Made by a program: the position numbers and the translations under genes. Of a stretch of DNA of 39,223 nt, positions 8,183 to 35,691 are shown in pieces. Numbering within the stretch: position 1 is the first letter of the stretch; every line of letters begins with the position of its first letter. The DNA lies in NCBI GenBank assembly GCA_017552435.1, contig JAFZPZ010000026.1, positions 1 through 39,223 of the forward strand. Direction: 5' to 3'. Source of the DNA: Bacteroidaceae bacterium (GTDB taxonomy: Bacteria > Bacteroidota > Bacteroidia > Bacteroidales > Bacteroidaceae). Under the pieces are notes generated by a model. The model searched no databases, was not told the origin of the DNA, and worked only from the letters and a program-made list of their open reading frames with translations.

Positions 8183-8213
8183 CAAAGGTACAACATTTCG
8201 GTGAAAAGTGAAA
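8183..8213 (-). promoter_or_regulatory. Promoter of the GT2 gene, almost touching the ATG
   Basis: Minus-strand TTTC (8213-8210), 19 bases, TACCTTTG (8190-8183). Only four bases separate the box from the ATG at 8178, so the mRNA should be leaderless or nearly so. Confidence 0.65.
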
Positions 8214-8227
8214 ATGAAAAGTGAAAA
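8201..8227. repeat. Heptamer array GTGAAAA
   Basis: GTGAAAA units with spacing 7, 7 and 6 in the divergent GT2/GH127 interval. It overlaps the -33 region of the GT2 promoter. Confidence 0.7.
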
Positions 8228-8273
8228 ATTGCAGTAAAGAGAAATAACTTTCAACTTAGAAGTCTCAACTATC

Positions 8274-8308
8274 ATTTTTAATTTTTGATTTTTGATTTTT
8301 AATTTTAT
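8274..8308. repeat. Heptamer array ATTTTTR upstream of GH127
   Basis: Five 7-base units (ATTTTTA or ATTTTTG, the last ATTTTAT). The array includes the TTTG serving as the likely -33 element of the GH127 promoter. Confidence 0.75.
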
Positions 8309-8324
8309 TTTATTTGTATATTTG
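8291..8324 (+). promoter_or_regulatory. Promoter of the GH127 gene
   Basis: TTTG at 8291-8294, a 22-base spacer, TATATTTG at 8317-8324. The spacer is slightly long. Start near 8330; leader about 25 bases to the ATG at 8356. Confidence 0.6.
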
Positions 8325-8355
8325 CACCAGAAAAACAACAAAAACGAGCAATCAA

Positions 8356-10407
8356 ATGAAGAGATTTATCCTCCTTGCCCTCCTTGCAACGCTTTATGCA
8401 AGTGGCACGAAAGCCCAAAAGGACCAGTCGGGCTATCCCATCACTCCTGTCCCCTTCACAGCTGTAAAAGTCGCCCCCAGCTCTTTCTGGGGACAACGGC
8501 TTCAGGCCAGCCGAGATGTCACAATCCCTTTGGCATTTAGTAAGTGCGAGTCTGAGCACCGTTACGACAATTTCTTGCAGGCTGCCGAGCATATCAAGGA
8601 TTCGTCCAAGACCTTCCAGGTGACAACAGGGTTCCCTTTCGACGATACTGACCCTTATAAGACGCTGGAAGGTGCCGCCTATCTGATGCAGACGCATCCC
8701 AACGCTATTATTAACGGCGAACCAATTGACAAATACTGCGACCGCGTAATAGGCATCATCGCCTCAGCACAAGAGCCGGACGGCTATCTCTATACTGTCA
8801 GGACAATGAACCCGGAAAAGCCCCACAGTTGGTCGGGAGCCAAGCGTTGGGTGGCTGTTGAGGACGGTTCGCACGAGCTGTATAACCTGGGACATCTGTG
8901 CGAGGCAGCTGTGGCACACTACAACGCTACGGGTAAGCGGAACCTGTTGGACATTGCCATCCGTTTTGCGGATTGTGTATGTCGTGAGATAGGTCCCAAA
9001 CCGGGGCAAGCCAATGTGGTGCCCGGACACCAAATAGCCGAGATGGGACTGGCAAAATTGTACATTGCCACAGGCGACCGCAAATATCTGGAACAGGCTA
9101 AATATTTTCTGGATCAGCGAGGAACTGTGAATCCTGCCTGGCAGAACATTGGAGGTGGAGGCTACCGAGATGCTGAGGGCTACGTACACCGCACGAACCA
9201 GTACTCTCAGAGCTACAAGCCTGTGACAGAGCAGGCTGAAGCCGTGGGACATGCCGTCCGGGCCGGATATATGTACGCCGGTATGGCTGATGTGGCTGCT
9301 CTGACTGGTGACACCGCATATTTCAATGCTATAGACCGTATCTGGGGAAATATCGTCGGCAAGAAATACTATCTCACCGGCGGTGTGGGAGCCTGCGGCG
9401 ACGGAGAACGTTTCGGCGACGACTACGAATTGCCCAACCTCACTGCCTATTGCGAAACATGTGCTGCTATTGCACAGGTCTATCTCTTTTACCGCCTCTT
9501 CCTGCTGCACGGTGAGAGCAAATATTATGATGTGCTGGAGCGTACGCTTTACAACGGTGTGATTTCCGGCATCTCCATCGACGGAGGTCGATTCTTCTAT
9601 CCCAATCCACTTGAATCGAATGGCGGATACGAGCGTCAACCTTGGTTCGGATGCGCCTGCTGCCCCTCCAACGCAGCACGCTTCATTCCCTCACTGCCCC
9701 AATACATCTATGCCGTCAAGGATAAATCCCTTTACATCAACCTTTTTGCCAGCAACGAGACTACTGTGTCGGTAAGCGGTAAAGCTGTCAGCCTCAAACA
9801 AGAGACTAACTATCCCTGGGACGGCGATGTGGCCATCACCATACAGAAAGCCCCGGTACCCTTCGCTCTGAAGATTCGCATTCCAGGATGGGTACGCGGC
9901 GAAGTGGTGCCCAGCGACCTATATCGTTTTGACGACGGCAAGCAACTCGGTTATTCCGTCAAGGTGAACGGAGAAAACGTAAATAGTGAGCTACAAAACG
10001 GGTATTTTGTTATTGACCGCAAGTGGAAGAAGGGCGACTGTGTGGAGTTGCACTTCGATATGGAACCGCGTCTGGTTCGTGCCAACGAGAAAGTGGAAGC
10101 CGATCGCGGCAGAGCAGCCATAGAACGCGGCCCGTTGGTCTATTGTGCCGAATGGCCCGATAATACTTGCGATGTACTGAATGTGTTACTCAATCAAAAA
10201 CCACGTATCACGCAGGGAAATAAGAAGATAGCACAGACAGACATTGTTACGCTCACTACCCAGGCCCAATCTTTTTCTTTCGGCGAAGACGGACGTCTGC
10301 AAACAAAAGATGAAACCCTTACCCTCATACCATATTACGCATGGGCACATCGCGGTAAAGGCCATATGGCAATATGGATACCTACTGCGCTAAGTGCGAT
10401 GAAATAA
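8356..10407 (+). CDS. GH127 beta-L-arabinofuranosidase (DUF1680)
   Basis: Secreted or periplasmic enzyme that releases beta-linked L-arabinofuranose from plant glycans such as extensins, pectin or arabinan side chains. Start at 8356 gives signal peptide 'MKRFILLALLATLYASGTKA'; an ATG at 8314 in the same frame would begin upstream of the promoter box. It is an (alpha/alpha)6 barrel protein of 683 residues. The zinc/thiolate centre is visible: Glu367 and Cys369 in 'YCETCAAIA', and Cys435-Cys436 in 'CACCPSNAAR', where by family knowledge the first Cys of the pair is the nucleophile. C-terminal beta domains follow from about 450. It is a single transcription unit, with no SusC/D pair beside it. 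Exact linkage specificity is not readable. Confidence 0.92.
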   Translation: MKRFILLALLATLYASGTKAQKDQSGYPITPVPFTAVKVAPSSFWGQRLQASRDVTIPLAFSKCESEHRYDNFLQAAEHIKDSSKTFQVTTGFPFDDTDPYKTLEGAAYLMQTHPNAIINGEPIDKYCDRVIGIIASAQEPDGYLYTVRTMNPEKPHSWSGAKRWVAVEDGSHELYNLGHLCEAAVAHYNATGKRNLLDIAIRFADCVCREIGPKPGQANVVPGHQIAEMGLAKLYIATGDRKYLEQAKYFLDQRGTVNPAWQNIGGGGYRDAEGYVHRTNQYSQSYKPVTEQAEAVGHAVRAGYMYAGMADVAALTGDTAYFNAIDRIWGNIVGKKYYLTGGVGACGDGERFGDDYELPNLTAYCETCAAIAQVYLFYRLFLLHGESKYYDVLERTLYNGVISGISIDGGRFFYPNPLESNGGYERQPWFGCACCPSNAARFIPSLPQYIYAVKDKSLYINLFASNETTVSVSGKAVSLKQETNYPWDGDVAITIQKAPVPFALKIRIPGWVRGEVVPSDLYRFDDGKQLGYSVKVNGENVNSELQNGYFVIDRKWKKGDCVELHFDMEPRLVRANEKVEADRGRAAIERGPLVYCAEWPDNTCDVLNVLLNQKPRITQGNKKIAQTDIVTLTTQAQSFSFGEDGRLQTKDETLTLIPYYAWAHRGKGHMAIWIPTALSAMK

Positions 10408-10428
10408 TAATGTAATAATCTAATGAGG

Positions 10429-10478
10429 CGGAAATACGCAAAGATATTTGGTATTTCGCTCGCTTATTCGTTTCTTTG
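10429..10478 (+). repeat. Promoter-carrying repeat, shortened copy B
   Basis: GGAAATAC ... GTATTTCGCTCGCTTATTCG followed by TTTCTTTG. It shares the spacer sequence with copies A and C but lacks the long A/T stem and has a mutated -7 box. It is tandem with copy C. Confidence 0.7.
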
Positions 10479-10503
10479 ACCTTGGTCGAAGATGCTCCCG
10501 CTC

Positions 10504-10575
10504 GGAAATAAAAAGAAAAACCTACGTTTTCTTTTTGTATTTCGCTCGCTTATTCGTATCTTTGCAGCGCGAAAT
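10504..10575 (+). repeat. Promoter-carrying hairpin repeat, copy C
   Basis: Long stem AAAAAGAAAA(A)C / GTTTTCTTTTT with a 4-base loop, flanked by GAAATA / TATTTC, then the conserved spacer and TATCTTTG. About 85% like copy A at 698-763 by eye. Confidence 0.8.
10534..10564 (+). promoter_or_regulatory. Promoter of the leu operon
   Basis: TTTG at 10534-10537, 19 bases, TATCTTTG at 10557-10564, carried inside repeat copy C. The leader to leuA is about 60 bases and holds no Leu-rich leader peptide or clear attenuator. Confidence 0.75.
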
Positions 10576-10632
10576 AAAACAAAGGTCTTTTTAGCCCTCA
10601 TTATGGGGGTATGATAACTAGTAATTGATAAT

Positions 10633-12135
10633 ATGAGTGACAAGCTATTTATTTTTGACACAACCCTTCGTGACGGCGAGCAGGTTCCTGGATGTCAGTT
10701 GAATACGGTGGAGAAAATTCAGGTAGCCAAACAGCTTGAGGCCCTTGGCGTAGATGTCATCGAGGCTGGCTTCCCCATTAGCAGCCCTGGTGACTTCAAC
10801 AGCGTGATAGAAATCAGTAAGGCTGTGACGTGGCCCACAATATGTGCGCTGACGCGTGCCGTTCAGAAGGATATTGATGTGGCTGCCGAAGCCTTGCAGT
10901 ATGCTAAGCACAAGCGTATCCATACGGGTATTGGTACCAGTGAGAGCCATATCCGCTACAAGTTCAACTCTACTCCCGAGGAGATTATCGAACGTGCTGT
11001 GGCTGCTGTTAAGTACGCCAAGAAGTACGTCGAGGATGTGGAGTTCTATGCTGAGGATGCCGGCCGTACCGACAATGAGTATCTGGCTCGTGTCATTGAT
11101 GCTGTAACCAAGGCCGGAGCTACGGTATGTAACATTCCAGATACAACAGGCTTCCGTGTCCCCAATGAATATCACGAGAAGATAAAGTACCTCTACGAAC
11201 ATGTCGATGCTTTTGCGGCAGGCAAAAGTATTCTTTCGACGCATTGCCACAACGACCTCGGTATGGCGACTGCCAATACCGTAGCTGGTGTGTTAGCTGG
11301 TGCCCGTCAGGCTGAGGTAACTGTCAATGGTATTGGTGAGCGTGCAGGTAATACCTCTCTGGAGGAGATTGCCATGATCTTCAAGACCCACCCCGACCTG
11401 GGCATAGAGACCAACATCAACACCACCAAGATCTATCCTACCAGTCGTATGGTAAGTTCTTTGATGAATATGCCCGTTCAGCCCAACAAGGCCATTGTGG
11501 GTAAGAACGCCTTTGCGCACAGCTCCGGCATCCATCAGGACGGTGTGCTGAAGAACGCCTCTACCTATGAGATTATGGACCCCAAGGATGTGGGTATCGA
11601 TGATAACGCTATTGTATTGACAGCTCGTAGCGGACGTGCAGCCCTGAAGCACCGTCTCAGTGTGAACGGTGTGGAGATTGACGGTGAGCGTCTGGATAAG
11701 GTTTATCAGGACTTCCTGGTTCTTGCCGACAAGAAGAAGGAGGTTACCGACGACGATATCCTGGTATTGGCAGGTGCCGACAGAAGCGCTTCGCATAATG
11801 TCAAGCTCGATTACCTCCAGGTAACAACAGGTAAGGGTGTTCGTAGCGTTGCCAGTATCGGCCTCATCATTGCCAACGAGAAGTTCGAGAGCGCAGCTTC
11901 CGGTAATGGTCCCGTTGATGCTGCCATCAAGGCGCTTAAGACTATCATCAAGCGCCAGATGACGCTGAAGGAGTTTACTATCCAAGCTATCAGCAAGGGA
12001 TCTGACGATGTGGGTAAGGTTCACATGCAGGTTGAGTATGATGGCCATCTCTATTATGGCTTCGGTGCCAACACCGACATTGTTACCGCCAGTGTAGAGG
12101 CATATATCGATTGTATAAATAAGTTTAAGTCTTAA
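10633..12135 (+). CDS. leuA: 2-isopropylmalate synthase
   Basis: First committed enzyme of leucine synthesis: condenses acetyl-CoA with 2-oxoisovalerate. The HMGL-like TIM barrel (about 5-270) starts with '[17 protein letters not shown]' and carries metal ligands in '[19 protein letters not shown]' and '[15 protein letters not shown]'. '[15 protein letters not shown]' marks the linker subdomain. The C-terminal leucine-binding regulatory domain is at about 385-500, so feedback inhibition by leucine is expected. 500 residues is normal. It is first in the leu operon, 28 bases before leuC. Codon choice (many GGT and CGT) points to high expression compared with neighbouring operons. Confidence 0.96.
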
Positions 12136-12163
12136 TTCAAAAATTATAAATTCAAAATATAGA

Positions 12164-13552
12164 ATGAGGACTCTCTTTGATAAGATTTGGGACGCTCACG
12201 TTGTGCAGAACGTTGAGGACGGCCCAACACAACTTTACATAGACCGCCTTTATGCGCATGAAGTAACCAGTCCACAGGCATTTGATACATTGAGGGACAA
12301 GAAAATTAAGGTTTTCCGTCCCGACCACGTATACGCTATGCCCGACCATAACACACCCAGCGACCAGCAGGACCATATTGACGACCCTGTAGGACGTAAT
12401 CAGGTGGAGACGTTGGCCAAGAACTGTGCAGAGTTTGGTATTACCCATTTTGCTATGGGAACCAAGGACAATGGTATCATCCATGTGGTTGGTCCTGAGA
12501 AGGCACTCTCTCTGCCTGGTATGACCATAGTCTGTGGCGACTCGCACACCAGTACACACGGTGCCGTTGGCGCCATTGCCATGGGTATCGGTACCAGCGA
12601 GGTAGCTCAGGTGCTGGCTTCGCAGTGTATCCTGCAGAGCAAGCCCAAGACCATGCGTATTAATATAGAAGGTACGCTGCAGCCTGGTGTTACCGCCAAG
12701 GATGTAGCCCTTTATATCATGGCTCAGATGACCACCAGTGGTGCTACCGGCTATGCTGTTGAGTATGCAGGCAGTACCATCCGTAATATGAGTATGGAGG
12801 GTCGTCTTACCCTGTCTAACCTTTCCATCGAGATGGGTTCACGTGCCGGTCTTATTGCTCCCGATGAGACGACCTTCGCTTACCTGAAGTGTCGTGAGTA
12901 TGCACCCAAGGGTGAGGCTTGGGACAAGGCTGTTGAGGAGTGGAAGAAGCTGAAGAGCGATGATGATGCAGTCTTCGATAAGGAAGTCACCTACCATGCC
13001 GAGGATATCAAACCCCGTATCACCTACGGAACAAACCCCGGTGCAGGTATTGCCATAGACGAGTGTATTCCTACATTGGAGAGCATCCCCGAGGCTGAGC
13101 GTCCTCAGTTCCAGGCTATGCTGGATTATATGCAGTTCCAGCCCGGTCAGAAGTTGGAGGGTACTCCCGTTGACTATTGTTTCCTGGGTGCTTGCACCAA
13201 TGGCCGTATCGAGGATTTCCGTGCTTTTGCCTCTGTGGTAAAGGGTAAGAAGAAAGCTGATAGTGTAGTAGCTTGGTTGGTTCCCGGTAGTTGGTTGGTT
13301 CGTCAGCAGATTATTGACGAGGGCATTGATAAGATATTGGAAGAGGCAGGCTTCGAGTTGCGTCTCCCCAGTTGCTCCAGTTGCTTGGCTATGAACCCCG
13401 ATAAGGTTCCTGCCGGTAAGCTTAGCATTAGTACCAGCAACCGTAACTTCGTAGGTCGTCAGGGTCCTGGTGCCCGGACTGTTTTGGCCAGCCCCCTTGT
13501 AGTGGCTGCAAGTGCTATTACTGGTGTGATAACGGATCCCCGCTCTCTTTAA
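12164..13552 (+). CDS. leuC: 3-isopropylmalate dehydratase, large subunit
   Basis: Aconitase-family large subunit; with LeuD it isomerises 2- to 3-isopropylmalate and can act on citramalate in isoleucine synthesis. The three [4Fe-4S] ligands are in place: Cys344 in '[11 protein letters not shown]', and Cys404 and Cys407 in '[14 protein letters not shown]'. '[16 protein letters not shown]' and '[12 protein letters not shown]' are family signatures. 462 residues is typical of the two-subunit bacterial type. ATG at 12164 is shortly after leuA. The gap to leuD is filled with two heptamer arrays. Confidence 0.96.
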
Positions 13553-13582
13553 GTGAAGAGTGAAGAATGAAGAGTGAAGAAT
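13552..13582. repeat. Heptamer array between leuC and leuD
   Basis: Four full 7-base units (AGTGAAG/AATGAAG) plus a partial one, identical over 31 bases to 4664-4694 in bglX. It begins right at the leuC stop. Confidence 0.85.
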
Positions 13583-13591
13583 CAAATAATG

Positions 13592-13619
13592 TTCAATGCT
13601 CAATGTTCAATGTTCAATG
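13592..13619 (+). repeat. Heptamer array supplying four ATGs at the leuD start
   Basis: Four units TTCAATG/CTCAATG. ATGs fall at 13596, 13603, 13610 and 13617, cycling through all three frames. Only the first and last are in frame with leuD. Confidence 0.85.
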
Positions 13620-14231
13620 AAAGAAAAATTCGACGTTATACAGTCAACTTGTATTCCCATCGAGATTGACAACAACAATACAGATAATATTATTCCTGCA
13701 CGTTATCTGGCTTTCACCACCCGTGATCCTAAGTTCTATGGTGATGCCTTTATGCACGACCTCCGCTATGACTCTAACAACCAGCCCGTAGCAGACTTTG
13801 TAATGAACAGGCCCGAGTTCTCAGAGGCCCCCCACAAGGGAGTGCACGAGATTATCGTTGGCGGTCAGAACTGGGGCTCAGGTTCCAGTCGCGAGCATGC
13901 TGCCTGGGCTATTGCCGGCTATGGTGTCCGTGTTGTTATCAGCAATAGCTTTGCCGATATCCATCGCAACAACCTGTTGAACTGTTTTGTACTGCCTGTT
14001 ATTGTCAGCCGTGAGTTCCAACTGGAACTATTCCGTAGTATTGCCGAGGATAGCAATACCCTAGTTACGGTGGATCTTCCCAACCAAACGGTTAAGAACG
14101 AGAAGACCGGCAGTGTGGAGCACTTCGAGATTAATGCTTACAAGAAGTATTGTCTCCTAAACGCATATGATGATATTGACTTCCTCTTGGCCAATAAGGA
14201 TAAGATAGAAGCATGGGAACATCATACATAG
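13617..14231 (+). CDS. leuD: 3-isopropylmalate dehydratase, small subunit
   Basis: Swivelling-domain partner of LeuC. Signature 'GGQNWGSGSSREHAAWAI' and 'VISNSFADIHRNNLLN' are present. I take the start as 13617 ('MKEKFDVIQSTCIPI'), giving 204 residues; the in-frame ATG at 13596 would add seven residues encoded only by the heptamer repeat. Its 3' end overlaps the next gene by 19 bases, so those two are probably translationally coupled. The family assignment is firm; the start is the only uncertain point because repeated ATGs compete. Confidence 0.94.
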   Translation: MKEKFDVIQSTCIPIEIDNNNTDNIIPARYLAFTTRDPKFYGDAFMHDLRYDSNNQPVADFVMNRPEFSEAPHKGVHEIIVGGQNWGSGSSREHAAWAIAGYGVRVVISNSFADIHRNNLLNCFVLPVIVSREFQLELFRSIAEDSNTLVTVDLPNQTVKNEKTGSVEHFEINAYKKYCLLNAYDDIDFLLANKDKIEAWEHHT

Positions 14232-16805: not shown

Positions 16806-16815
16806 TAATAGGGAA

Positions 16816-19811: not shown

Positions 19812-19835
19812 ACCCCCTAACCCCCTTTAGGGGGA
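19811..19835. repeat. Left arm of a 25-bp inverted repeat
   Basis: C-rich palindromic repeat (CCCCCTTTAGGGGG core) starting at the DUF6057 stop. Its reverse complement recurs, with three or so mismatches, at 19897-19921. Confidence 0.8.
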
Positions 19836-19841
19836 ATTTGG

Positions 19842-19876
19842 ATTAGAGATTAGAGAATAGAGATTAGAGAATAGAA
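19842..19876. repeat. Heptamer array abutting the lipoprotein start
   Basis: Five 7-base units (ATTAGAG/AATAGAG) in the order X X Y X Y, the same order as the array at 4664 and 13552. The ATG at 19877 follows directly. Confidence 0.8.
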
Positions 19877-21409
19877 ATGAATGTCATAAAAACAACTCCC
19901 CCTAAAGGTGGATGGGGGGTCTTTTTCCTCCTGATTCTCCTTGCTGCTTGTTCGGGGCATCCATCCCTGCCGTCAAGCTATACGCAGATGAATACCGAAC
20001 CCAGCATCTGGCCCGACTATGTCGGCGTCACCATTCCGCCGAATATCGCTCCGCTCAACTTCCTTGTGGACAGCGTGGACGATGTGGTGGCAGAAATATC
20101 AATGGTCAATGGTCAATGGTCAATGACTTACGGAGGCAAGGGCGGCAGGGTTCAGATAGATGAGTCCGAGTGGCACGAAATGCTTGCTTCTGCCCGGGGG
20201 AAGAGCCTCTCTGTCACTGTCTATACCAAGAAGGATGGCAAGTGGCGGGCTTACAAGCCTTTCAATATCAATATAGCAGCCGAAGAAATCGACCCCTTTG
20301 TTTCCTATCGTGTTCTGCCTCCAACCTTTGTGGGCTTCGATGAACTCTCCATCCGTCAGCGCAACCTCACGAACTACGATGAGACAATCATCTACAACAA
20401 CAATCAAATCACGGAAGGCATCGAGGGACAGTGTATCAATTGTCATTCCTACCAGAACTACAGCACAGACAACATGATGTTCCACATGCGTCTGCAACAC
20501 CCGGGCACCATGATAGTCTCCGACGGAGAACTTATCTTCGTCAACCTGAAGACCGACGAAATGATATCCCCTGCCGCCTATAATTCATGGCATCCGTCGC
20601 TTCCCATCATTGCTTTCAGCACAGACCATACCATGCAGAGCTTCCATACTCGCGAAATAACAAAGGTAGAGGTGATGGAGTCGGCAAGTGACCTCATTAT
20701 CTATGATGTCAAGAATAATCGCGTTCAGACAGTCCTCAGTGACTCCGCAGAGTTTGAACTCTTCCCGTCGTGGAGTCCCGATGGCAAGTGGCTCTACTAT
20801 TGTTCGGCACATTACGAATACCGGGACAAGTACGAGGATACAGAAGAGTTGCTCGCGAAGTACAAGACCTTGCAGTACAACCTCTACCGCATCTCCTTCG
20901 ACTCTGGGACAATGACTTTCGGCGAGCCGGAACTTATCTATGATGCAGTCGGCAAGAACCGTAGTGCTGTGCAGCCCCGTGTCTCGCGGGATGGTCGCTA
21001 TGTGGTCTTTGCAGAAGGCCCTTGGGGACTCTTCCACATCTGGCATATCTCGGCTGATATCCAAATTCTGGACTTGCAGACGGGAGAACTTCTCGACGCT
21101 TCTGCGATAAACAGTTCACTTCCAGAGAGCTATCCCTCCTTCTCGTCGAACGAACGTTGGATACTCTTCGAGAGTCGTCGCGATGACGGAAATTACACCC
21201 GGACATATTTCGCTTATTTCGATCGGGAAGGCCGCCTTCATAAGCCTTTCCAGGTACCTGCGGAAGACCCGGAATTTTTCCGCCTTTACCTGCGCAGTTG
21301 GAGCCGTCCCGAGCTGATGAAGGAACCTGTCCACATTACTCCCAGACAGTTCTACGAGAAGGCGCTTACAGAGCCAGTCAAAGTGGCCGGGGTAAGCCTG
21401 TCGGAGTGA
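19877..21409 (+). CDS. PD40/TolB-like lipoprotein with one CXXCH motif
   Basis: 510-residue lipoprotein with lipobox 'LLAAC' (Cys25). The signal peptide's front part 'TTPPKGGWG' is encoded by a palindromic repeat (19897-19921). 'GQCINCHSY' (Cys186, Cys189, His190) is a c-type heme motif, followed by 'NMMFHMRLQHPGT'. The second half is a beta-propeller with PD40 repeats ('FPSWSPDGKWLYY', 'QPRVSRDGRYVVFAEG', 'YPSFSSNERWILFES'). A 7-base tandem repeat at 20101-20128 encodes 'MVNGQWSMT' near residue 76-84. It probably works with the upstream porin and DUF6057 protein at the envelope. The heme binding is inferred from the motif only; no partner cytochrome gene is in the window. Confidence 0.82.
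   Translation: MNVIKTTPPKGGWGVFFLLILLAACSGHPSLPSSYTQMNTEPSIWPDYVGVTIPPNIAPLNFLVDSVDDVVAEISMVNGQWSMTYGGKGGRVQIDESEWHEMLASARGKSLSVTVYTKKDGKWRAYKPFNINIAAEEIDPFVSYRVLPPTFVGFDELSIRQRNLTNYDETIIYNNNQITEGIEGQCINCHSYQNYSTDNMMFHMRLQHPGTMIVSDGELIFVNLKTDEMISPAAYNSWHPSLPIIAFSTDHTMQSFHTREITKVEVMESASDLIIYDVKNNRVQTVLSDSAEFELFPSWSPDGKWLYYCSAHYEYRDKYEDTEELLAKYKTLQYNLYRISFDSGTMTFGEPELIYDAVGKNRSAVQPRVSRDGRYVVFAEGPWGLFHIWHISADIQILDLQTGELLDASAINSSLPESYPSFSSNERWILFESRRDDGNYTRTYFAYFDREGRLHKPFQVPAEDPEFFRLYLRSWSRPELMKEPVHITPRQFYEKALTEPVKVAGVSLSE
19897..19921. repeat. Right arm of the inverted repeat, inside the signal peptide
   Basis: Reverse-complement match of 19811-19835. In the plus direction it is followed by CTTTTT, so the pair can form a terminator-like hairpin whose loop holds the lipoprotein start codon. 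Confidence 0.75.
20101..20128 (+). repeat. AATGGTC heptamer repeat within the lipoprotein coding sequence
   Basis: Three exact AATGGTC units and a fourth partial one (AATGACT). One unit more or less would shift the frame. Confidence 0.85.
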
Positions 21410-23145: not shown

Positions 23146-23153
23146 CAAAAAAA

Positions 23154-23181
23154 GTTGATAGTTGATTGTTCATAGTTCATA
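23154..23181. repeat. Heptamer array GTTSATA in the divIC/dnaX interval
   Basis: Four 7-base units (GTTGATA, GTTGATT, GTTCATA, GTTCATA) between the two divergent promoters. Confidence 0.75.
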
Positions 23182-28503: not shown

Positions 28504-28573
28504 CAGTGTCCTATTGAACTATTACACTATTAGGATATAAAAAATGAAAGAAAATTTATAACTCTAATATATC

Positions 28574-28594
28574 AACTTTTAACTTTTAATTATG
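28574..28594 (+). repeat. Heptamer array carrying the ABC ATPase start codon
   Basis: AACTTTT, AACTTTT, AATTATG: the ATG of the gene at 28592 ends the third unit. Confidence 0.65.
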
Positions 28595-29284
28595 ATTAGC
28601 ATAGAAAAAATCAAGTTTGGCTACAGAAGTCATCAGACTGTACTGGACGATTTCTCGCTCGAATTTGCTTCGGGCGGCATCTACGGACTCTTGGGTAAGA
28701 ACGGTACTGGCAAGAGTACATTATTATATTTAATGATGGGTCTGTTGCGTCCGCAAGGGGGTGACGTCACCATCGACGGCATCTCTGCTACCCTTCGCAG
28801 GCCGGAGGTGTTGAGGGAAATGTTTCTCGTCCCGGAGGAGTATGATCTGCCGCGCATTTCGCTGCGCAAGTACGTGAAGTCCATCAAACCTTTCTATCCC
28901 CGCTTCAGTGACGAGCTGTTGGAGCGTTGCCTGGCAAACTTCGAGATGACTTCGGATGTTGATCTTGGCTCGCTCTCGATGGGACAGAAGAAGAAGGTGT
29001 ATATGTGCATTGCACTTGCCACGAACACACGCTATCTCCTCATGGACGAACCCACCAACGGACTGGACATCCTCTCGAAGAGCCAGTTCCGCAAAGCTGT
29101 CATCGAAAGCATGTCGGACGACAAGACCGTCATCGTCTCCACCCATCAGGTGCATGATGTTGAGCTTCTGCTCGACCACGTCTGCATCATCGAGCAAAAC
29201 AGAGTGCTCCTCAGCGAACCTCTCGTAGAGAAAGACGAACCTATAAACCTGGAAGAATTATTCATAAAAACATTAAGTAACTGA
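28592..29284 (+). CDS. ABC transporter ATP-binding protein
   Basis: 230-residue nucleotide-binding domain. Walker A 'GLLGKNGTGKST', signature 'LGSLSMGQKKKVYMCIALA' (a slightly changed LSGGQ), Walker B 'YLLMDEPTNGLD' and H-loop 'VIVSTHQVHD' are all present. This resembles the YtrB/CcmA-like ATPases that pair with a separate polytopic permease under control of a YtrA-type GntR repressor. The permease follows 187 bases later and the GntR gene three genes later. The substrate is unknown; family members often relate to envelope stress from cell-wall-active compounds. Confidence 0.9.
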   Translation: MISIEKIKFGYRSHQTVLDDFSLEFASGGIYGLLGKNGTGKSTLLYLMMGLLRPQGGDVTIDGISATLRRPEVLREMFLVPEEYDLPRISLRKYVKSIKPFYPRFSDELLERCLANFEMTSDVDLGSLSMGQKKKVYMCIALATNTRYLLMDEPTNGLDILSKSQFRKAVIESMSDDKTVIVSTHQVHDVELLLDHVCIIEQNRVLLSEPLVEKDEPINLEELFIKTLSN

Positions 29285-29308
29285 AGTTTCGGAAGTAGTA
29301 TGTTTATG

Positions 29309-29471
29309 AAGTTAACGAAGTTAGCGAAGCGATAACTCCCGAAAGTTAAATTAAGTAACAAGTAGTCAGTAGTCATGTAGCCAGTAGTTATGCCAATTGT
29401 CTGGGATGCTAAATGTATCGGCTTAACTACTTAACTACTTTCACTTCTTAACTACAAAACTATAAATTAAC
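29309..29471. repeat. Repeat-filled gap between ATPase and permease
   Basis: It contains GAAGTTAAC-type nonamers (29309-29326), an AGTAGTC heptamer array (29361-29389) and a TTAACTAC octamer array (29423-29471) that runs to the permease ATG. AGTAGTTA at about 29383-29390 is the reverse complement of TAACTACT at 29424-29431, so the two arrays can pair. Confidence 0.65.
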
Positions 29472-30314
29472 ATGAAACAGTTTGATTTCCACCGATTCCT
29501 CAACGTTGCTCGTTGGGACCTCAGCATCAACAGCAAGTTCTATACCCGTTCAGCTATCCTCATGATAGCACTTATCAGTTCGCCTGTCCTGTTATACTAC
29601 CTGTATATGATGGCATCAGGCTCCTTCCTCGACGCAGAAAGCATGCACGATAGTATTGTCGGACTTGGCGCCGCCACCGCTTGGGTAGGCAGTTTAATTT
29701 GTACAATCTCATCGGGCTATATGTTCCACAACCTGCTCACAAAACAGGGACGCATCAACGAACTCACCTTGCCCGCAACGAATCTGGAGCGTTTCCTCTG
29801 GCACTTCGCAGTCATCGTTATAGGCGTCCAGCTTGTGTATTTCGTCGGAGTCGCGTTTGCCGACCTGCTGCATGCTTTGTTCCGCCTGTCGCTTCCTCAT
29901 GCAGAAATCAGGTCCATTTTCAATTCTCTGATAATTGAATGTTTTTCCGACTGGAGAGAACTGGGGAAATATGGCGTGGGCATTATGTTGCTTGTTCTGA
30001 TTCTGATCTCTTGTTTCAACAGAAGCTTCTGCCTCTTCAATGCATGGAAGTATCGTTACAACATCCCCTGGACGTTCCTTTTCTACTTCATTTTGTGGAA
30101 TGTTCTGGGCGTGCTTTCCGTCGTCATTCTTTTCAACTACTTCGATTCGCCGCGTGAAGTGGAGAGAATCTGGAACTGGCTGAATGACGGGGGACACATC
30201 AATACCGTCCTCGTTTGCCTGGATATCATTGCAACGCTGGTCTATATTGGCATCTGGGTTCTCACATACCGCCTCTACACCAGAGCACAACTGACTACAA
30301 AACGCAATCCGTAA
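29472..30314 (+). CDS. ABC transporter permease-like membrane protein
   Basis: 280 residues with about six transmembrane helices: 30-48 ('AILMIALISSPVLLYYLYM'), 66-86, 110-130 ('FAVIVIGVQLVYFVGVAF'), 168-185 ('YGVGIMLLVLILISCF'), 199-222 and 250-270. Cytoplasmic N-terminus with 'FDFHRFLNVARWDLSINSKFY'. It matches the general form of permeases partnered by YtrB-like ATPases in Bacteroidetes. The family is named by context; no conserved motif gives a substrate. It probably dimerises with the ATPase at 28592. Confidence 0.75.
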   Translation: MKQFDFHRFLNVARWDLSINSKFYTRSAILMIALISSPVLLYYLYMMASGSFLDAESMHDSIVGLGAATAWVGSLICTISSGYMFHNLLTKQGRINELTLPATNLERFLWHFAVIVIGVQLVYFVGVAFADLLHALFRLSLPHAEIRSIFNSLIIECFSDWRELGKYGVGIMLLVLILISCFNRSFCLFNAWKYRYNIPWTFLFYFILWNVLGVLSVVILFNYFDSPREVERIWNWLNDGGHINTVLVCLDIIATLVYIGIWVLTYRLYTRAQLTTKRNP

Positions 30315-30332
30315 CCCCCGGGGGAGGTAAGA

Positions 30333-30356
30333 ACCTTATTAATATATATATAAGGT
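30333..30356 (+). other. Hairpin in the permease/thioredoxin gap
   Basis: ACCTTAT / ATAAGGT stem (7 bp) with an A/T loop, 9 bases before the next ATG. It may modulate translation; there is no U-run to make it a terminator. Confidence 0.4.
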
Positions 30357-30365
30357 ATAAAGAAG

Positions 30366-32072
30366 ATGGAAAAGAAAATCACAATCTTTCTGATTGCCCT
30401 TGTGATAGCAATCGTTGTATTAGTTGGCGCGCATGCCATCTACAACAAAGTGCAAATAGCGAATGCCCCGACAATTCAGGAACTCGCCGAAGCATATCCG
30501 TGGACGGTTCCCGATGACTGGTTCAAGACAGACACCATCACACTGAAAGGCCGCATCGAAGGATATGATGCAGAAGAGTTCGGCTTCACCTCGATGAAAT
30601 GTTCCTACGAAGATGTCTTCGAGAACGACCGAAGCACAGTGCTGGTGATGGGCATCGCCGCCGACGGCACATTCTGCAAGAAGTTCCTTGCCAGCTACCC
30701 GATGCAGCAGGTATTCTATACCACAGACTCTAACGTTTCCTTCCATTCAATTTCGTTCTTCGCCCGTCCCGGTGAGACCATCGACGTCACCGTGCGGAAA
30801 GGCTCGCTCGGGCAGTACGAATGCATCTACAACAACGGCAGCAGCAAGGATGTGGAGCGATGGCTCCGCACGTCGGAAGAACTTGCGAAGCAATTCAGTC
30901 CGCTATGGCACTTCGAGGGCACATTCGACGAAGCAAACGAGGTGGCCGACATAGTATGGAAAATGGTAATGTCGAAACTGCAAAAGATAATCCGCAGCGA
31001 GGGCTATACGCCGATGGAAGTGCAACTGGCACTGGCCGACGTTCAGGCACGTTTCGGACAAGACTACATTGGCTGCATCGTAAAACAGGCAGATGCCTTG
31101 GTTAATTCCAAAAAATGTGACAGCCTCGGTTGTGCCGAGATTCTCGACAGCGCGGAATGGAAGAAGTATAATGACGCGAAAACCTACGCACCCCTGCGGC
31201 GCATCGACTTCGACAACCCGTTGCTCTTCGCCAGCCAACATTTCTATTTCCTGCAAAACCGCATCCAGTACGCCAGGCCTGTTGCCACAGGCAGCACAGT
31301 ACTCTCCTATGAGGGCTATTCTAAGCAGCTCACAGACTACCTCGCTGCCCTGCGCGACCTTATGGGCGACGACCACGACAATCTGATGGCACAGCTATGC
31401 GCTTACAAGGAATTCACTTTCCATTTCGACACTTTTCGCGAGGATGGAGATTCCTACCAATACATGCTCTCCGCCGATAATCTGACCGAGGAACAGAAGA
31501 AAAGAAACATCGAGGGTTGGCCCACGCTCGCCAAGATGTTCCCGCTCTATCTTGATGCCTTCAAGAACCCATACATCCGTCAGAAGGCAGAGCAGTTCCG
31601 CGACCGCAAGCTGTCACAGAAAGACCTTACCACGCCACTGCCCTTTACGCCTGCTGCTGAAATGATAGGAGAGTTCGTCGCCAAGTATCCCGGCAAGTTC
31701 CTCGTCATCGACTTCTGGGGCATGAGTTGCGGCCCTTGCCGTGCTGCCATTCAGGAGAGCAAGGAACTACGTGCCGAAATTGCCAAACGCGACGACGTGA
31801 AGCTCATCTTCATTGCAGAAGAGGACACTCCCGATGGTAGCGACGCTTACAAGAAGTATGTGGCGGAGTGGCTGGCTGGCGAAGAGGCCGTCTGTGTCAC
31901 CAATGCCGACTTCAGTCGCCTGCAAGAACTCTTTGAGTTCAATGGCATTCCGCACTACGAGACCATAACGCCCGACGGCAACCGTGTCAGCGACGACCTC
32001 CGCTTGCAAGGCTATGAAAACTTTGTCGGGCAGTTTGAGAAGCTGAAAGAGAAACTTCTTAATTATAACTAA
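30366..32072 (+). CDS. Membrane-anchored thioredoxin-fold (TlpA-like) protein
   Basis: 568 residues. N-terminal membrane anchor (6-26, 'TIFLIALVIAIVVLVGAHAI'), a DUF4369-like beta domain (about 55-165), a helical middle (about 170-410) and a C-terminal thioredoxin domain (about 430-565). The active site 'FWGMSCGPCRAA' has Cys455 and Cys458, and the cis-Pro lies in 'FEFNGIPHYETI'. This is the usual layout of Bacteroidetes periplasmic TlpA/ResA-like reductases, of which substrates are mostly unknown. Being between an ABC permease and its GntR regulator suggests it supports redox folding in the same envelope response. Confidence 0.85.
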   Translation: MEKKITIFLIALVIAIVVLVGAHAIYNKVQIANAPTIQELAEAYPWTVPDDWFKTDTITLKGRIEGYDAEEFGFTSMKCSYEDVFENDRSTVLVMGIAADGTFCKKFLASYPMQQVFYTTDSNVSFHSISFFARPGETIDVTVRKGSLGQYECIYNNGSSKDVERWLRTSEELAKQFSPLWHFEGTFDEANEVADIVWKMVMSKLQKIIRSEGYTPMEVQLALADVQARFGQDYIGCIVKQADALVNSKKCDSLGCAEILDSAEWKKYNDAKTYAPLRRIDFDNPLLFASQHFYFLQNRIQYARPVATGSTVLSYEGYSKQLTDYLAALRDLMGDDHDNLMAQLCAYKEFTFHFDTFREDGDSYQYMLSADNLTEEQKKRNIEGWPTLAKMFPLYLDAFKNPYIRQKAEQFRDRKLSQKDLTTPLPFTPAAEMIGEFVAKYPGKFLVIDFWGMSCGPCRAAIQESKELRAEIAKRDDVKLIFIAEEDTPDGSDAYKKYVAEWLAGEEAVCVTNADFSRLQELFEFNGIPHYETITPDGNRVSDDLRLQGYENFVGQFEKLKEKLLNYN

Positions 32073-32086
32073 TAATAAAAGGAACT

Positions 32087-32443
32087 ATGGAATTCAAAAA
32101 TAATAAACCTATCTTCCAACAGATAGCCGAGCATCTCTGCGACGAGATATTGCAGGGACGCTATCCCGAAGGCGAACGACTACCCAGTGTGCGCGAGTAT
32201 GCTGCTGAGGTCGAGGTCAACGTCAACACCCTGGTCCGCTCCTACGAATGGCTCAGCCAGAAGGAGATTATCTTCAATCGTCGCGGCATGGGGTACTTCG
32301 TCAGCGAAGGAGCACGGGAAGCTGTCCTGGAACTGCGCAGAAATGAGTTCTTCGAAGAACAGCTGCCCGAGTTCCTCAGAAATATTAAGGCCCTGGGTAT
32401 CACCCTGGAAGAATTAAGAGTGAAGAATGATTCGTCTGACTAA
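32087..32443 (+). CDS. GntR-family regulator, YtrA subfamily
   Basis: 118 residues: a winged-helix DNA-binding domain (about 8-75) with 'IFQQIAEHLCDEILQGRYPE', 'ERLPSVREYAAEVEVNVNTL' and wing 'NRRGMGYFV', then a short helical dimerisation tail. The small size and lack of an effector domain mark the YtrA subfamily, typically repressors of ABC transporter operons including their own. Here it sits in the middle of the operon it probably controls. Its last codons come from a heptamer array (32412-32432) that also holds the next gene's start; the genes overlap by 17 bases. Confidence 0.9.
   Translation: MEFKNNKPIFQQIAEHLCDEILQGRYPEGERLPSVREYAAEVEVNVNTLVRSYEWLSQKEIIFNRRGMGYFVSEGAREAVLELRRNEFFEEQLPEFLRNIKALGITLEELRVKNDSSD
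32412..32432 (+). repeat. Short heptamer array at the gntR/ABC overlap
   Basis: AATTAAG, AGTGAAG, AATGATT: the middle unit equals that of the arrays at 4664 and 13552, and the third supplies the ATG at 32427. Confidence 0.6.
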
Positions 32444-33143
32444 TATACATAAAACGTATCAGGGTGCCCAGCCCCTGCATGTCCTGAAGGGTATAAACCT
32501 GCATATCAAGAAGGGCGAGTTCGTGGCTGTCATGGGTGCCTCGGGTTCGGGGAAGAGTACCTTGCTGAACATCTTGGGCATCCTGGACAGTTACGACGAG
32601 GGTGAGTACATGCTGGCAGGTACTCCCATCCGTAACCTGAGCGAAACGCGAGCCGCTGATTACCGCAATCGCATGATTGGCTTCATCTTCCAGTCCTTCA
32701 ACCTCATAAGCTTCAAGAATGCTGTCGAGAATGTGGCGTTGCCGCTCTTCTATCAGGGTGTGGGCCGACGGAAACGGAACCAGTTGGCGCTGGAATATCT
32801 GGACCGTTTGGGCCTGAAGGACTGGGCTCATCACTATCCGGGCGAGCTTTCTGGCGGCCAGAAGCAGCGTGTAGCCATTGCCAGGGCTCTCATCACTCAG
32901 CCTCAGATTATCCTGGCAGACGAACCTACGGGTGCTTTGGACAGTCAGACTTCACTGGAGGTGATGGAGATCCTGAAGGATTTGCACAGGCAGGGCCTCA
33001 CCATCGTTGTGGTGACGCACGAGAGCGGTGTGGCCTATCAGACCGAGAAAATTGTGCATATCAAGGACGGTGTGATCGAGCGGATAGAAGAGAACCTGAA
33101 TCCCGACGCGAACCCTTTCGGTATAAAGACACAGATGAAATAA
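32427..33143 (+). CDS. MacB/LolD-type ABC transporter ATPase
   Basis: 238 residues. Walker A 'GASGSGKSTLLN', Q-loop 'FIFQSFNLI', signature 'LSGGQKQRVAIARAL', Walker B 'IILADEPTGALD' and 'VVVTHE'. This is the ATPase type that powers mechanotransmission permeases (MacB, LolCDE) which move substrates from periplasm through a TolC channel. Unlike E. coli MacB the ATPase is separate from the permease. It overlaps gntR by 17 bases and is followed after 4 bases by the first permease. Confidence 0.93.
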   Translation: MIRLTNIHKTYQGAQPLHVLKGINLHIKKGEFVAVMGASGSGKSTLLNILGILDSYDEGEYMLAGTPIRNLSETRAADYRNRMIGFIFQSFNLISFKNAVENVALPLFYQGVGRRKRNQLALEYLDRLGLKDWAHHYPGELSGGQKQRVAIARALITQPQIILADEPTGALDSQTSLEVMEILKDLHRQGLTIVVVTHESGVAYQTEKIVHIKDGVIERIEENLNPDANPFGIKTQMK

Positions 33144-33147
33144 CCCT

Positions 33148-34401
33148 ATGCTGGACACATTGCAAGAGATATACGGCGCTATCATGCGGAGTAAGATGCG
33201 CACCATCGCTACGGGATTTGCCGTAGCCAGCGGGCTGTTCCTCATCATCGTGTTGCAAGGCGCGGGAAATGGTGTCATCAACTCTTTCGAGGTGAACATG
33301 GGTAACTTTGCATTCGATGCCATACACATCTTCGGAGGCCGGACCACGAAACCCCACGAGGGTATCAAGGAGGGGCGTTTCATCCAGTTGGACACACGCG
33401 ATGTGGAGATGACACAGCGCACGTTCTCCCACTACGTGAAGGATGTGATGCCTTCGCTGAACCAGAGCGGGCTGACTGTGAGTCACGGAGCCCAGCATCA
33501 GAGTGCAACGCTGATGGGTGTCAATCCGGCTTGGGCACAGGCTAACGCAGTGAAGATGGTCAGCGGACGTTTTATCAACGAGATTGACTTGCGGCAGAAA
33601 CGTAAGTCGGTGGTCATCAGCGATGTGAATGCCCGTGACCTCTTTCCCCACGGAGGAAATGCGGTTGGGGAGATGTTGGACTTCAACGGAATTCCCTATA
33701 CGGTGGTTGGAATCTACAAGGATAATCAGATGTCCAACGAACGTACTTTCTATGCGCCTTTCACCACCGTCAGTGTTATCTATAATCGCGGGGAGTTCAT
33801 CAATCGTCTGTCTATGTTGACCCGTCATATAGAAAGCGACTCGGCCATGAATCGGTTCATGGATGAATACACGCGGGCCAGCAGCCAGATTCATTCCTTT
33901 GCGCCCGATGACAGGCAGGCGCTGTGGATATGGAACCAGGCGGAGAGCAACATGCAGATGAAGAAGACACAGCGGATACTGCATACGGCTTTTTGGATTC
34001 TGGGCTTGCTGACGCTGGTGAGCGGTGTGGTAGGGGTGAGCAATATCATGCTGATTTCCGTTAAGGAACGCACACGCGAATTCGGTATCCGCCGGGCCAT
34101 CGGGGCACGTCCCTGGAGTATTGTCCGCATGGTGATGGCAGAGAGCGTTGTCATTACGGCACTCTTCGGCTATCTCGGGATGCTGTTGGGTATCTTCTTC
34201 TGCGAGTACATGGACAGCACGGTGGGCAACCAGACGATGGATATCGGTGTATTCCAGGCCCAGTACTTCGTGAACCCGACGGTGGACCTTTCCACATGTC
34301 TTACAGCCACAGTGATTATTGTCATTGCCGGCGCTCTGGCGGGCTTGTTCCCCGCTCTGGATGCCGTGAAGGTTAAACCTATAGATGCATTACGAGGATG
34401 A
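33148..34401 (+). CDS. MacB-like ABC permease, first copy
   Basis: 417 residues in the MacB/FtsX layout: transmembrane helix 1 (about 22-42, 'TGFAVASGLFLIIVLQGAG'), a large periplasmic domain (about 45-280), then three helices (about 285-305, 335-360, 385-405). The cytoplasmic coupling motif 'SVKERTREFGIRRAIGARP' and the end 'DAVKVKPIDALRG' are family hallmarks. The second permease starts inside its last codon (ATGA overlap), so they are made together and probably form a heterodimer. Confidence 0.92.
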   Translation: MLDTLQEIYGAIMRSKMRTIATGFAVASGLFLIIVLQGAGNGVINSFEVNMGNFAFDAIHIFGGRTTKPHEGIKEGRFIQLDTRDVEMTQRTFSHYVKDVMPSLNQSGLTVSHGAQHQSATLMGVNPAWAQANAVKMVSGRFINEIDLRQKRKSVVISDVNARDLFPHGGNAVGEMLDFNGIPYTVVGIYKDNQMSNERTFYAPFTTVSVIYNRGEFINRLSMLTRHIESDSAMNRFMDEYTRASSQIHSFAPDDRQALWIWNQAESNMQMKKTQRILHTAFWILGLLTLVSGVVGVSNIMLISVKERTREFGIRRAIGARPWSIVRMVMAESVVITALFGYLGMLLGIFFCEYMDSTVGNQTMDIGVFQAQYFVNPTVDLSTCLTATVIIVIAGALAGLFPALDAVKVKPIDALRG

Positions 34402-35651
34402 GACTGTTTGATATAGACCGATGGGAGGAGATTTTCGACTCGTTGAGCAAGAATCGCACCCGTAGCATCCTCACTGCCTTTGGCATTTTCTGGGGCGTTT
34501 TCATGCTTATCCTGCTGATGGGTGGAGGACGCGGCCTGGAAACCATGTTGGGCAGTAATCTCGCAGGCTTTGCTTCGAATTCGGGCTTTATCTTTGCCGA
34601 GAATACCGGGAAACCATACAAGGGATTCCGGCGGGGCAGGTATTGGTGCATCGAATTGAACGATGTGAAGCGTGTGAAGAACTGTGTGGAGGGCGTCGAT
34701 GTCGCTACGCCCATCATTCAGAACTGGGGCGGTACGGCGATGGCTGGTAATCATAGTTGCAGCGTGACGGTATCGGGAGAGCGTTCTGACTATGCACAGG
34801 TGGATGATCCGAAGATCAGGTTTGGCCGTCCGTTGAACGATGTGGATGATATGCAGCATCGCAAGGTCTGTGTGGTTGGGACACGCATTGTCGAGGAACT
34901 CTTCCCCGAGTTGGGTAAAGAAGATCCCTGTGGCCGGTTCATTCAACTGGATGGGGTATATTATTGCATCGTTGGCGTAAGCGGAAAAAGTGCGAATGGC
35001 ATCTCCCTGGGCGGAAATGCCCAGACGATGGTGCATCTGCCATACGGTACGATGCAGCAGACCTACAACCGCGGAAATCGCGTGGATATGCTGGCGCTGA
35101 CAGCTCTTCCGGGCTATAAGATGTCGGATGTTCAGGCGCGGACCGAGCAGTTGCTGAAGCGTGCTCATGTGATTCATCCCGAGGATACAGAGGCCGTGAT
35201 GAAACTGAATACCGAAGCCGTTTTTGCCATGATAGACAATTTGTTCCGCGGCGTGAGCATCCTGGTCTGGATGATAGGATTGGGGACTCTGCTGGCCGGA
35301 GCTATTGGCGTGAGCAATATCATGATTGTCACCGTGAAGGAACGCACCACCGAGATAGGCATCAGGCGTGCCATCGGAGCAACGCCCCTCGATATCCTGT
35401 CGATGGTAATGTCCGAGAGTGTAGTGCTGACGTTGTTGTCGGGTATGAGTGGCATCACGTTGGCAGTCCTCATCCTGCAGGGAATGGAGGTCGGCTTGCG
35501 GGAGACGGCTCCCGATGCGCAGTTCCAGATATCTTTCGGGGTGGCAGTCGGTGCAGCCTCCCTCCTGGCGGTGCTGGGCCTTGTCGCAGGGCTGGCTCCA
35601 GCCATCAGGGCAATGAAGATAAAACCCGTGGATGCCATGAGGGAAGAGTAG
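34398..35651 (+). CDS. MacB-like ABC permease, second copy
   Basis: 417 residues, same length and layout as its upstream neighbour but clearly diverged. N-terminus 'WEEIFDSLSKNRTRSILTAF' leads into helix 1; periplasmic domain about 50-270; coupling motif 'TVKERTTEIGIRRAIGATP'; end 'RAMKIKPVDAMREE'. The two probably arose by duplication and act as a pair with the single ATPase at 32427. The gap to the adaptor gene (35652-35705) contains a heptamer array. Confidence 0.92.
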   Translation: MRLFDIDRWEEIFDSLSKNRTRSILTAFGIFWGVFMLILLMGGGRGLETMLGSNLAGFASNSGFIFAENTGKPYKGFRRGRYWCIELNDVKRVKNCVEGVDVATPIIQNWGGTAMAGNHSCSVTVSGERSDYAQVDDPKIRFGRPLNDVDDMQHRKVCVVGTRIVEELFPELGKEDPCGRFIQLDGVYYCIVGVSGKSANGISLGGNAQTMVHLPYGTMQQTYNRGNRVDMLALTALPGYKMSDVQARTEQLLKRAHVIHPEDTEAVMKLNTEAVFAMIDNLFRGVSILVWMIGLGTLLAGAIGVSNIMIVTVKERTTEIGIRRAIGATPLDILSMVMSESVVLTLLSGMSGITLAVLILQGMEVGLRETAPDAQFQISFGVAVGAASLLAVLGLVAGLAPAIRAMKIKPVDAMREE

Positions 35652-35663
35652 GGGAGTAATTCT

Positions 35664-35691
35664 TAATTGATAATTGACAATTGATAATTTA
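35664..35691. repeat. Heptamer array TAATTGA between permease and adaptor
   Basis: Four 7-base units (TAATTGA, TAATTGA, CAATTGA, TAATTTA), 15 bases before the ATG of the adaptor gene. Confidence 0.75.

Follow-up and report, generated by a model that had tools for sequence, protein, structure and literature searches.

What process places short arrays of one fixed period, built from many different units, at so many sites of a bacterial genome? The question is raised by contig JAFZPZ010000026.1 of the Bacteroidaceae bacterium assembly GCA_017552435.1, whose 39,223 nucleotides (hereafter the window) carry degenerate tandem repeats of seven bases, several of them at gene edges. The window is one contig of a 3.5 Mb assembly (129 contigs, 88% complete). 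Base-by-base examination covered 815,109 bases, namely the window and 40 further stretches of the same genome, which make up 23% of it; the source genome and most of its congeners are incomplete assemblies. The computations revealed a 7-bp period, families of units, a block with a tail, in-frame inserts, species-specific sites and large differences between congeners. Based on these observations, we lean towards the view that the arrays are very short dispersed repeats, which were born as 7-bp tandems and spread as blocks of about 25-45 bp.

A fixed period and shared units

Arrays were called at a lag-scan score of at least 12 (match +1, mismatch -2), and shuffles served as control sequence (200 order-2 Markov shuffles for the window, five shuffles for the 815 kb). 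At lag 7 the window contained 8 arrays, while the shuffles averaged 0.02 and never exceeded 1, and the other lags between 2 and 30 that are not multiples of 7 gave 0 or 1 array each. The exact 7-bp arrays of the window were seen by both Tandem Repeats Finder (TRF) and the lag scan. The initial annotation had listed 11 seven-base sites here; eight of them pass the threshold, while those at 8201, 28574 and 32408 score below it. Its call for lag-7 autocorrelation beyond the window was answered clearly, since 157 lag-7 arrays were found in the 815 kb and the five shuffles average 0.2. Lag 8 gave 26 arrays, and the remaining lags that are not multiples of 7 gave 18 or fewer. Most arrays are short (25-36 bp in 123 of 157), and they are split into 104 intergenic arrays and 53 inside called open reading frames (ORFs), with a density of 0.56 per kb in intergenic and 0.084 per kb in coding DNA. 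The seven-base rhythm is real and genome-wide.

The 157 arrays have 44 consensus units, of which AACATTG, AAGAGTG, AACTATG, AAAATTC and AATTGAC are the commonest. The chance that two arrays share a unit was 0.037, compared with 0.003 (maximum 0.0047 in 300 draws) for AT-matched intergenic 7-mers, and the units thus fall into a few shared families. Many differing units with one rhythm, far above chance, are best read as the product of a common generating process, and on this point the annotation held up. Minority units differ from the majority unit of their array mainly by transitions (62 of 102 differences). When four-unit arrays with two variants were considered, XXYX (28/65) and XYXX (12/65) were the commonest orders. 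The order X X Y X Y had been thought to be common to 4664, 13552 and 19842. It does recur with other units at 19842, but the arrays at 4664 and 13552 are one sequence (31 consecutive identical bases) and therefore count once; genome-wide, units two apart were no more alike than neighbours, as 0.836 of 2000 order-shuffles matched or exceeded their advantage. We therefore rejected XXYXY as a shared rule.

Longer stretches are also shared. Among the 157 arrays, 49 have a 25-mer in common with another locus, and an imperfect 28-mer is shared by 9 pairs, while permuting units within families gave 0.68 pairs on average and at most 6. One recurrent block consists of an AGTGAAG-type array followed by the tail ATTTGCTRCCGC, and it is present in different genes. 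The motif TTTGCTRCCGC occurs in 8 copies in the 815 kb, 6 of them within 45 bp of a called array; judged by eye, 6 of the 8 copies are preceded by AGTGAAG-type units, that in L026 follows another module and that in L019 neither. Genome-wide, GAAGAATTTGCTRCCGC, whose first bases are the end of an AGTGAAG-type unit, has 34 copies at up to 2 mismatches, and its reversed control has 0. For the 23 copies with at most 1 mismatch, inspection by eye placed 19 after further AGTGAAG-type units and 3 after another module, with 1 doubtful. Four copies of the block, in ORFs of L388, L390, L393 and L398, encode the same peptide SEELRVKSEEFA, and the flanking residues differ. The tail was found in 30 of the 61 genomes of the genus, including the source genome, with 229 matches and 0 control matches in every genome, and its count tracks that of the array pattern across these genomes (Spearman 0.69, kinship ignored). 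Since the tail is not repeated, it is not producible by slippage, and it is the strongest single result for block copying.

Orthologous sites in congeners

We compared one genome per species. Where aligned, congener coding DNA is about 67-83% identical to the window, and for this reason intergenic gaps are hard to align between congeners. The leuC-leuD gap measures 73-83 bp between aligned edges in the source genome and holds two arrays, and it measures only 5-14 bp in genomes G405, G400, G444 and G427 (5-6 bp in G405 and G400). In G419 and G397 the gap holds AATTAAG or AATTATG arrays instead, and an AGTGAAR array lies at the same junction in L069, a Prevotella-titled record whose LeuC is 71% identical. 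At the DUF6057-PD40 junction, the scan found other heptamer arrays in congener loci L121, L123 and L124; a degenerate array was seen by eye in L131, which has a 43%-identical homolog, and several loci have none. The spacer upstream of dnaX has kept 68-70 bp in the source genome, G400, G397 and G444, with differing heptamer units or orientation; heptamers are also present in G428, and none were seen by eye in G405, G404 and G416. The orthologous-site comparison argues that blocks were gained as units, species-specifically.

The arrays within called ORFs encode about 5-13 residues, mostly 8-13. Their host genes appear to include QueA-, RuvA-, Gmd-, AroB-, pfkB- and RND-like genes, names that are our reading of the sequences, with no family search run. 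We submitted 15 in-ORF arrays to an ortholog test, and 11 were compared against 40 congener regions, among the matches listed; L016:7586 and L025:14388 were omitted as having no congener among the matches listed, and L016:4586 and L022:4774 as having weaker congener matches. The array of the RND pump adds 36 bp and that of Gmd adds 30 bp, each missing from 4/4 orthologs, and that of AroB adds 12 bp against 4/4 orthologs. In the QueA C-loop, a CTTCACT-type array adds 27 bp against 3/5 orthologs, which have a short loop; the other two carry AATGAAG and AAATTGT types (L185) or GC-rich palindromic repeats (L184). The GH31-like array is common to the source genome and G400 and adds 3 to 11 residues against four others. 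None of the net gains (27, 30 and 36 bp) is divisible by 7 or 21, so growth unit by unit would have crossed frameshifts. In the QueA N-loop, all five species aligned, including the source genome, have heptamer repeats of equal length with differing units: AATTGAC in the source genome, partly degenerate AACATTG in L183, and the AAAATTC type in L184, L185 and, in degenerate form, L186. Judging from these alignments, some ORF arrays are clear in-frame inserts, and others are loops whose length varies in any case.

The number of arrays differs widely within the genus. In stretches mostly around the synteny of the window, counts ranged from 0 per 40 kb (G405, G416, G404) to 9 per 40 kb (G397). When one family pattern was counted in the 61 genus genomes, 18 had 0 matches and G412 (62% complete) had 159; the reversed control gave 0 in most, but 19 in G443 (18 pattern matches) and 15 in G437 (98 pattern matches). 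Regional and whole-genome counts can disagree, as in G427, which has 0 arrays in 20 kb but 54 pattern matches. Beyond the genus, we rejected the AGTGAAG-type pattern as an order-wide trait, because it matched in 56 of 393 genomes, most of them with few matches, and several of these did not exceed the reversed control. A scan of viral contigs with this pattern gave at least 120 stretches.

Weighing the explanations

In the explanation that we favour, slippage would first produce a seed, a few tandem units whose length is strongly biased to exactly 7 bp. Pieces some 25-45 bp long, comprising the array and sometimes its non-repeated tail, would then be copied elsewhere in the genome, most likely through template switching during replication or ectopic conversion between AT-rich micro-homologies. 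Copies would persist where about 30 extra bases are tolerated, as in the short gaps of operons, in promoter spacers, at the ends of genes and, within proteins, in signal peptides and variable loops, and an array ending at a gene may supply its start or stop codon by chance. Most copies would have no function. The data fit this scheme, with rapid replacement of arrays.

Several results weigh against this explanation. Neither an enzyme nor a copying event between donor and recipient was caught. The excess of shared 28-mers is modest when order is shuffled within arrays (9 pairs, mean 2.65, maximum 11), and the sharing of imperfect 21-mers is not significant (31 pairs, 17.6 expected, maximum 38). 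The identity of the four SEELRVKSEEFA peptides is partly due to selection, because an open frame selects a stop-free order of units. G395, G408, G432 and G440 have 33-69 pattern matches and no tail; the tailed block is therefore not the sole vehicle. There is an excess of units with a stop codon on at least one strand (152/157, about 115 expected), which the model does not predict. In addition, several ORF arrays differ from orthologs in ways other than a plain gain: L025:2287 by -2, +10 and +6 residues, L149 by 0, -1, +4 and +4, and pfkB by +4, -3 and -12, while RuvA (+1 to +2 residues), L137 (+1 residue) and the QueA N-loop (0) show little or no net change. Such unchanged or shorter arrays look like in-place replacement, or like loops that vary anyway.

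The best surviving alternative is local slippage only, in which each array would have grown in situ from a chance 7-mer, with a replication machinery that favours 7 bp. The available part of PMC4679880 credits the idea of a replication preference for heptamers to Mrazek 2007, and according to its introduction heptanucleotides are the commonest class in the majority of genomes with abundant 5-11 nt repeats. The period of exactly 7 bp agrees with this view, and so do the differences between minority and majority units, which resemble ordinary point mutation in being mostly transitions. However, unit sharing between loci is about 12-fold over AT-matched chance, arrays carry the fixed tail, and the in-frame net gains of 27, 30 and 36 bp lie in conserved genes. 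We regard slippage alone as a possible account, but not a probable one.

It is rather doubtful that the genus has a dedicated activity which synthesises or copies heptamer blocks, some 30-45 bp long, at new positions, holding the period at 7 and leaving the unit free. If it did, the arrays would form a mobile sequence class far below the size of miniature inverted-repeat transposable elements (MITEs). Such a class would rewrite the spacers of promoters and provide housekeeping proteins with ready-made inserts of about 9-13 residues, and the activity would be on in some species of the genus, where one family reaches 159 matches, and off in others, which have 0. The candidate agents sought by family search (RVT_1, Y1_Tnp and mutS1) do not track the arrays. 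Loss of MutS1 was rejected as a driver, since mutS1 was over cut-off in 54 of 61 genomes, including the source genome, G412, G397, G419 and G428; it was not over cut-off in the array-rich but incomplete G437 and G439.

The initial annotation had placed the arrays at gene starts throughout the window and suggested, as an alternative to a common generating process, a shared role at translation starts. Such a role would make them post-transcriptional control sites, as proposed for the TAACTGA repeats of Beggiatoaceae. The arrays of the window, and a repeat adjoining one of them, are as follows.

4662..4697, plus strand: AGTGAAG/AATGAAG array of 5.1 units (TRF, lag scan), inside the GH3 coding sequence (2484-4733, minus strand), 36 bp past its start; on the gene strand it encodes FILHSSFFTLHS, part of an apparent signal peptide
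8201..8227, plus strand: weak GTGAAAA-type repeat, best lag-7 score 8; by TRF a perfect 13-bp period, or 7 bp with an indel
8274..8306, plus strand: ATTTTTG/ATTTTTA array of 4.7 units (TRF, lag scan), before the GH127 gene; TTTGTATATTTGC, a promoter-like element, lies directly downstream
13552..13580, plus strand: AGTGAAG/AATGAAG array in the leuC-leuD gap, its first bases within the leuC stop codon
13588..13619, plus strand: AATGTTC array of 4.6 units, whose final ATG (13617) probably starts leuD; a 25-mer of it is found again at L148:9826
19812..19836, plus strand: palindromic dispersed repeat CCCCCTAACCCCCTTTAGGGGGA, adjoining the next array
19841..19875, plus strand: GATTAGA/GAATAGA array of 5 units, its end adjoining the ATG of the PD40 gene (19877)
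20099..20125, plus strand: TCAATGG array of 3.9 units within the PD40 ORF, 222 bp in; it encodes SMVNGQWSM, in a stretch whose length varies among homologs
23153..23181, plus strand: AGTTGAT/AGTTCAT array in the spacer upstream of dnaX
28574..28589, plus strand: AACTTTT, 2.3 units, weak (score 9), adjoining the start at 28592
32408..32430, plus strand: degenerate AGTGAAG-type array of 3.3 units, weak (score 6), in the overlap of ORFs 32087-32443 and 32427-33143; it gives EELRVKN near the end of the former and the ATG (32427) of the latter
35657..35693, plus strand: TAATTGA/CAATTGA array between the ORF ending at 35651 and the ORF starting at 35706

Pfam matches in the window comprise GH3, GH127, LeuA-type HMGL, aconitase-type LeuC and LeuD, DUF6057 and a clamp loader. 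Together with the nearest named relatives of its LeuC, which come from metagenome-assembled genomes titled Bacteroidaceae, Prevotellaceae, Prevotella or Bacteroidales, many of ruminant origin, they place the window in Bacteroidales. Rfam at the gathering threshold and a tRNA scan gave no match in the window. Several arrays thus lie at or beside starts (13617, 19877, 28592, 32427, 35706), but those at 20101 and 4664 are inside ORFs, and those at 8274 and 23153 precede promoter-like elements.

The annotation had also asked whether arrays are enriched near starts genome-wide. Genes were called with simple custom scripts under three start definitions, arrays were placed at random inside the same gap as the null, and the answer depended on the definition. 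Codon-scored starts showed no enrichment, with 20/89 arrays within 15 bp and 20.9 expected. Where two callers agreed on the start, the excess was mild: 10/47 arrays end within 5 bp (6.3 expected, reached by 0.043 of placements) and 13/47 within 10 bp (8.5 expected, 0.02). With longest-ORF starts the excess was clear (40/77 with 31.8 expected, and 43/93 with 21.9 expected); we discount it as biased, because arrays contain ATG and stop codons and thereby attract that caller. Stop codons attract arrays at least as clearly (19/83 within 5 bp, 11.4 expected, 0.001). The arrays thus lie at gene edges in general, with at most a weak pull to gene starts. Their density is highest in short gaps, at 3.2 per kb where the gap is below 60 bp and 0.34 per kb where it exceeds 500 bp. 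The six families have no consistent strand preference in co-directional gaps, where numbers are small, the most uneven larger family being CTAATCC with 7/9 antisense. Moreover, 53/157 arrays lie within called ORFs, and congeners lack arrays at the same operon junctions or carry different ones. A shared role at translation starts thus finds no backing here; we rejected a start-codon system, as the three definitions disagree and stops behave likewise, and consider control sites quite improbable.

It is very improbable that the arrays act as insulators that end stray translation between genes, although tandem 7-bp units that hold a stop codon do bring a stop into each of the three frames over 21 bp. 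Only 5/157 units are free of stop codons on both strands, while 42 would be expected for AT-matched intergenic 7-mers, TGA/TCA occurs in 111/157 units (46 expected), and arrays lean toward stop codons. However, arrays in co-directional gaps show no strand bias (stop on the sense strand only in 20, antisense only in 19, both in 27), and the arrays within ORFs are joined by 23 in divergent gaps. Movement of non-autonomous elements by a Y1/RAYT-type transposase is extremely improbable: palindromic dispersed repeats do adjoin some arrays, and Y1_Tnp was matched in array-bearing G419 and G427, but Y1_Tnp (PF01797) was not matched in the source genome, G397, G400, G412, G428, G437 and G439, all of which bear arrays. 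The palindrome CCCCTTTAGGGG was rejected as a fixed partner, since such sites lie near 5/104 intergenic arrays with 3.2 expected. Least credible of all is a telomerase-like reverse transcriptase such as DRT10, described in the available part of PMC12632851 as making tandem-repeat DNA from an RNA template: the source genome and G100 (30 pattern matches) have one RVT_1 match each, but RVT_1 (PF00078) was not matched in array-bearing G397, G400, G144 and G367, some genomes being incomplete, array-poor G404 has one match, and the many different units would need many templates. Both enzymes were rejected as drivers, as their profile matches do not follow the arrays.

Neighbouring repeats and known systems

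Other repeats accompany the arrays. A second repeat class with fixed period and free unit consists of arrays with a period of 22 bp. Their units differ from locus to locus, and many have a palindromic core, for instance AACACGTT or CATCGCGATG; there are 36 of them in 375 kb of congeners, compared with 23 lag-7 arrays there. Examples are listed below.

L246:10938-11003, L263:6267-6393, L259:4445-4537 and L257:10755-10854: arrays of 22-bp period in congeners
L136:17855-17933 and L144:7214-7280: arrays of 22-bp period in the source genome

The palindrome CCCCCTAACCCCCTTTAGGGGGA recurs at 19892-19918 of the window and near 8300 of L014, and its commonest 13-mer has 54 copies in the 815 kb. Sequence like it is apparently translated, as TPPKGGWG near the start of the PD40 protein and as PPLKGEES and PFKGDLEG in a QueA-like protein. 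The module TTCCGCGACTACAATCGCGCCTTGGTGCTAAAGCATCCAAGAA, with two hairpin-like halves by eye, lies between or beside heptamer stretches (L017:19409, L399:1538, L400, L407, L414). At 698-757 and 10507-10574 the window carries a dispersed sequence, about 57 bp long and matched many times in the genome, which ends in the promoter-like element TATTCGTAYCTTTGC, and a family with an 8-bp period (TTTGGTCG, TTTAGTCG) is found at 38373-38396 of the window, L028:9064-9122 and L026:737-785.

Heptamer repeats of bacteria have so far, in the sources available in part, been discussed as slippage tracts or possible control sites. The congener comparison adds the apparent gain of blocks as units, sometimes in-frame in QueA-like, Gmd-like and RND pump genes, and a genus in which species range from 0 to over 150 matches to a single family. 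Two questions thereby become testable, namely why the period is 7 bp and how very short repeats spread. Annotation also needs care, since an array can provide a start codon, spurious or real, a signal peptide or a C-terminal tail. Among the literature matches listed (titles and abstract openings), there was nothing on such repeats in Bacteroidales, although a printed description may have been missed.

Long simple sequence repeats, including those of phase variation, resemble the arrays in being slippage-prone tandem repeats in which heptamers are common. Phase-variation arrays are usually longer and purer, however, and the arrays here have about 4-5 imperfect units. The short tandemly repeated repetitive sequences (STRRs) of cyanobacteria (Mazel 1990) are reportedly degenerate heptamer tandem arrays dispersed over the genome and mostly intergenic. 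The arrays here are likewise degenerate, dispersed and mainly intergenic, but the phylum and the units are different, and we know of no tailed block or protein inserts described for STRRs. Rickettsia palindromic elements are short dispersed repeats accepted in-frame within protein genes at tolerant places. The in-frame insertions missing from orthologs are similar, most clearly in the RND pump and Gmd; those elements, however, are palindromic and about 100-150 bp long, whereas the arrays are tandem and mostly far shorter. DRT10 also yields short tandem repeats in bacteria, there enzymatically, but according to the available part of PMC12632851 its product has 9-nt repeats, made on an RNA template, and chromosomal arrays are not mentioned there.

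The closest likeness is to the TAACTGA repeats (MacGregor 2015). As far as the available part of PMC4679880 describes them, they too are direct 7-bp repeats with a few units each, mostly intergenic with some in ORFs, they often touch start or stop codons, they are patchy between relatives, some of which have shorter, repeat-free gaps, and mobility was considered there as well. TAACTGA itself is not among the 44 consensus units of the 815 kb. Those repeats lie mostly a few nucleotides upstream of starts in one orientation, which was not found here, although longest-ORF starts give a contrary excess. That system has one unit, and related heptamers are rarely repeated; here 44 units form several families and variants of each unit are common. 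Also unlike the TAACTGA system in the part of PMC4679880 available, the arrays of this genome provide in-frame inserts in housekeeping-type enzymes and a block with a fixed tail, and they have no specificity for start codons.

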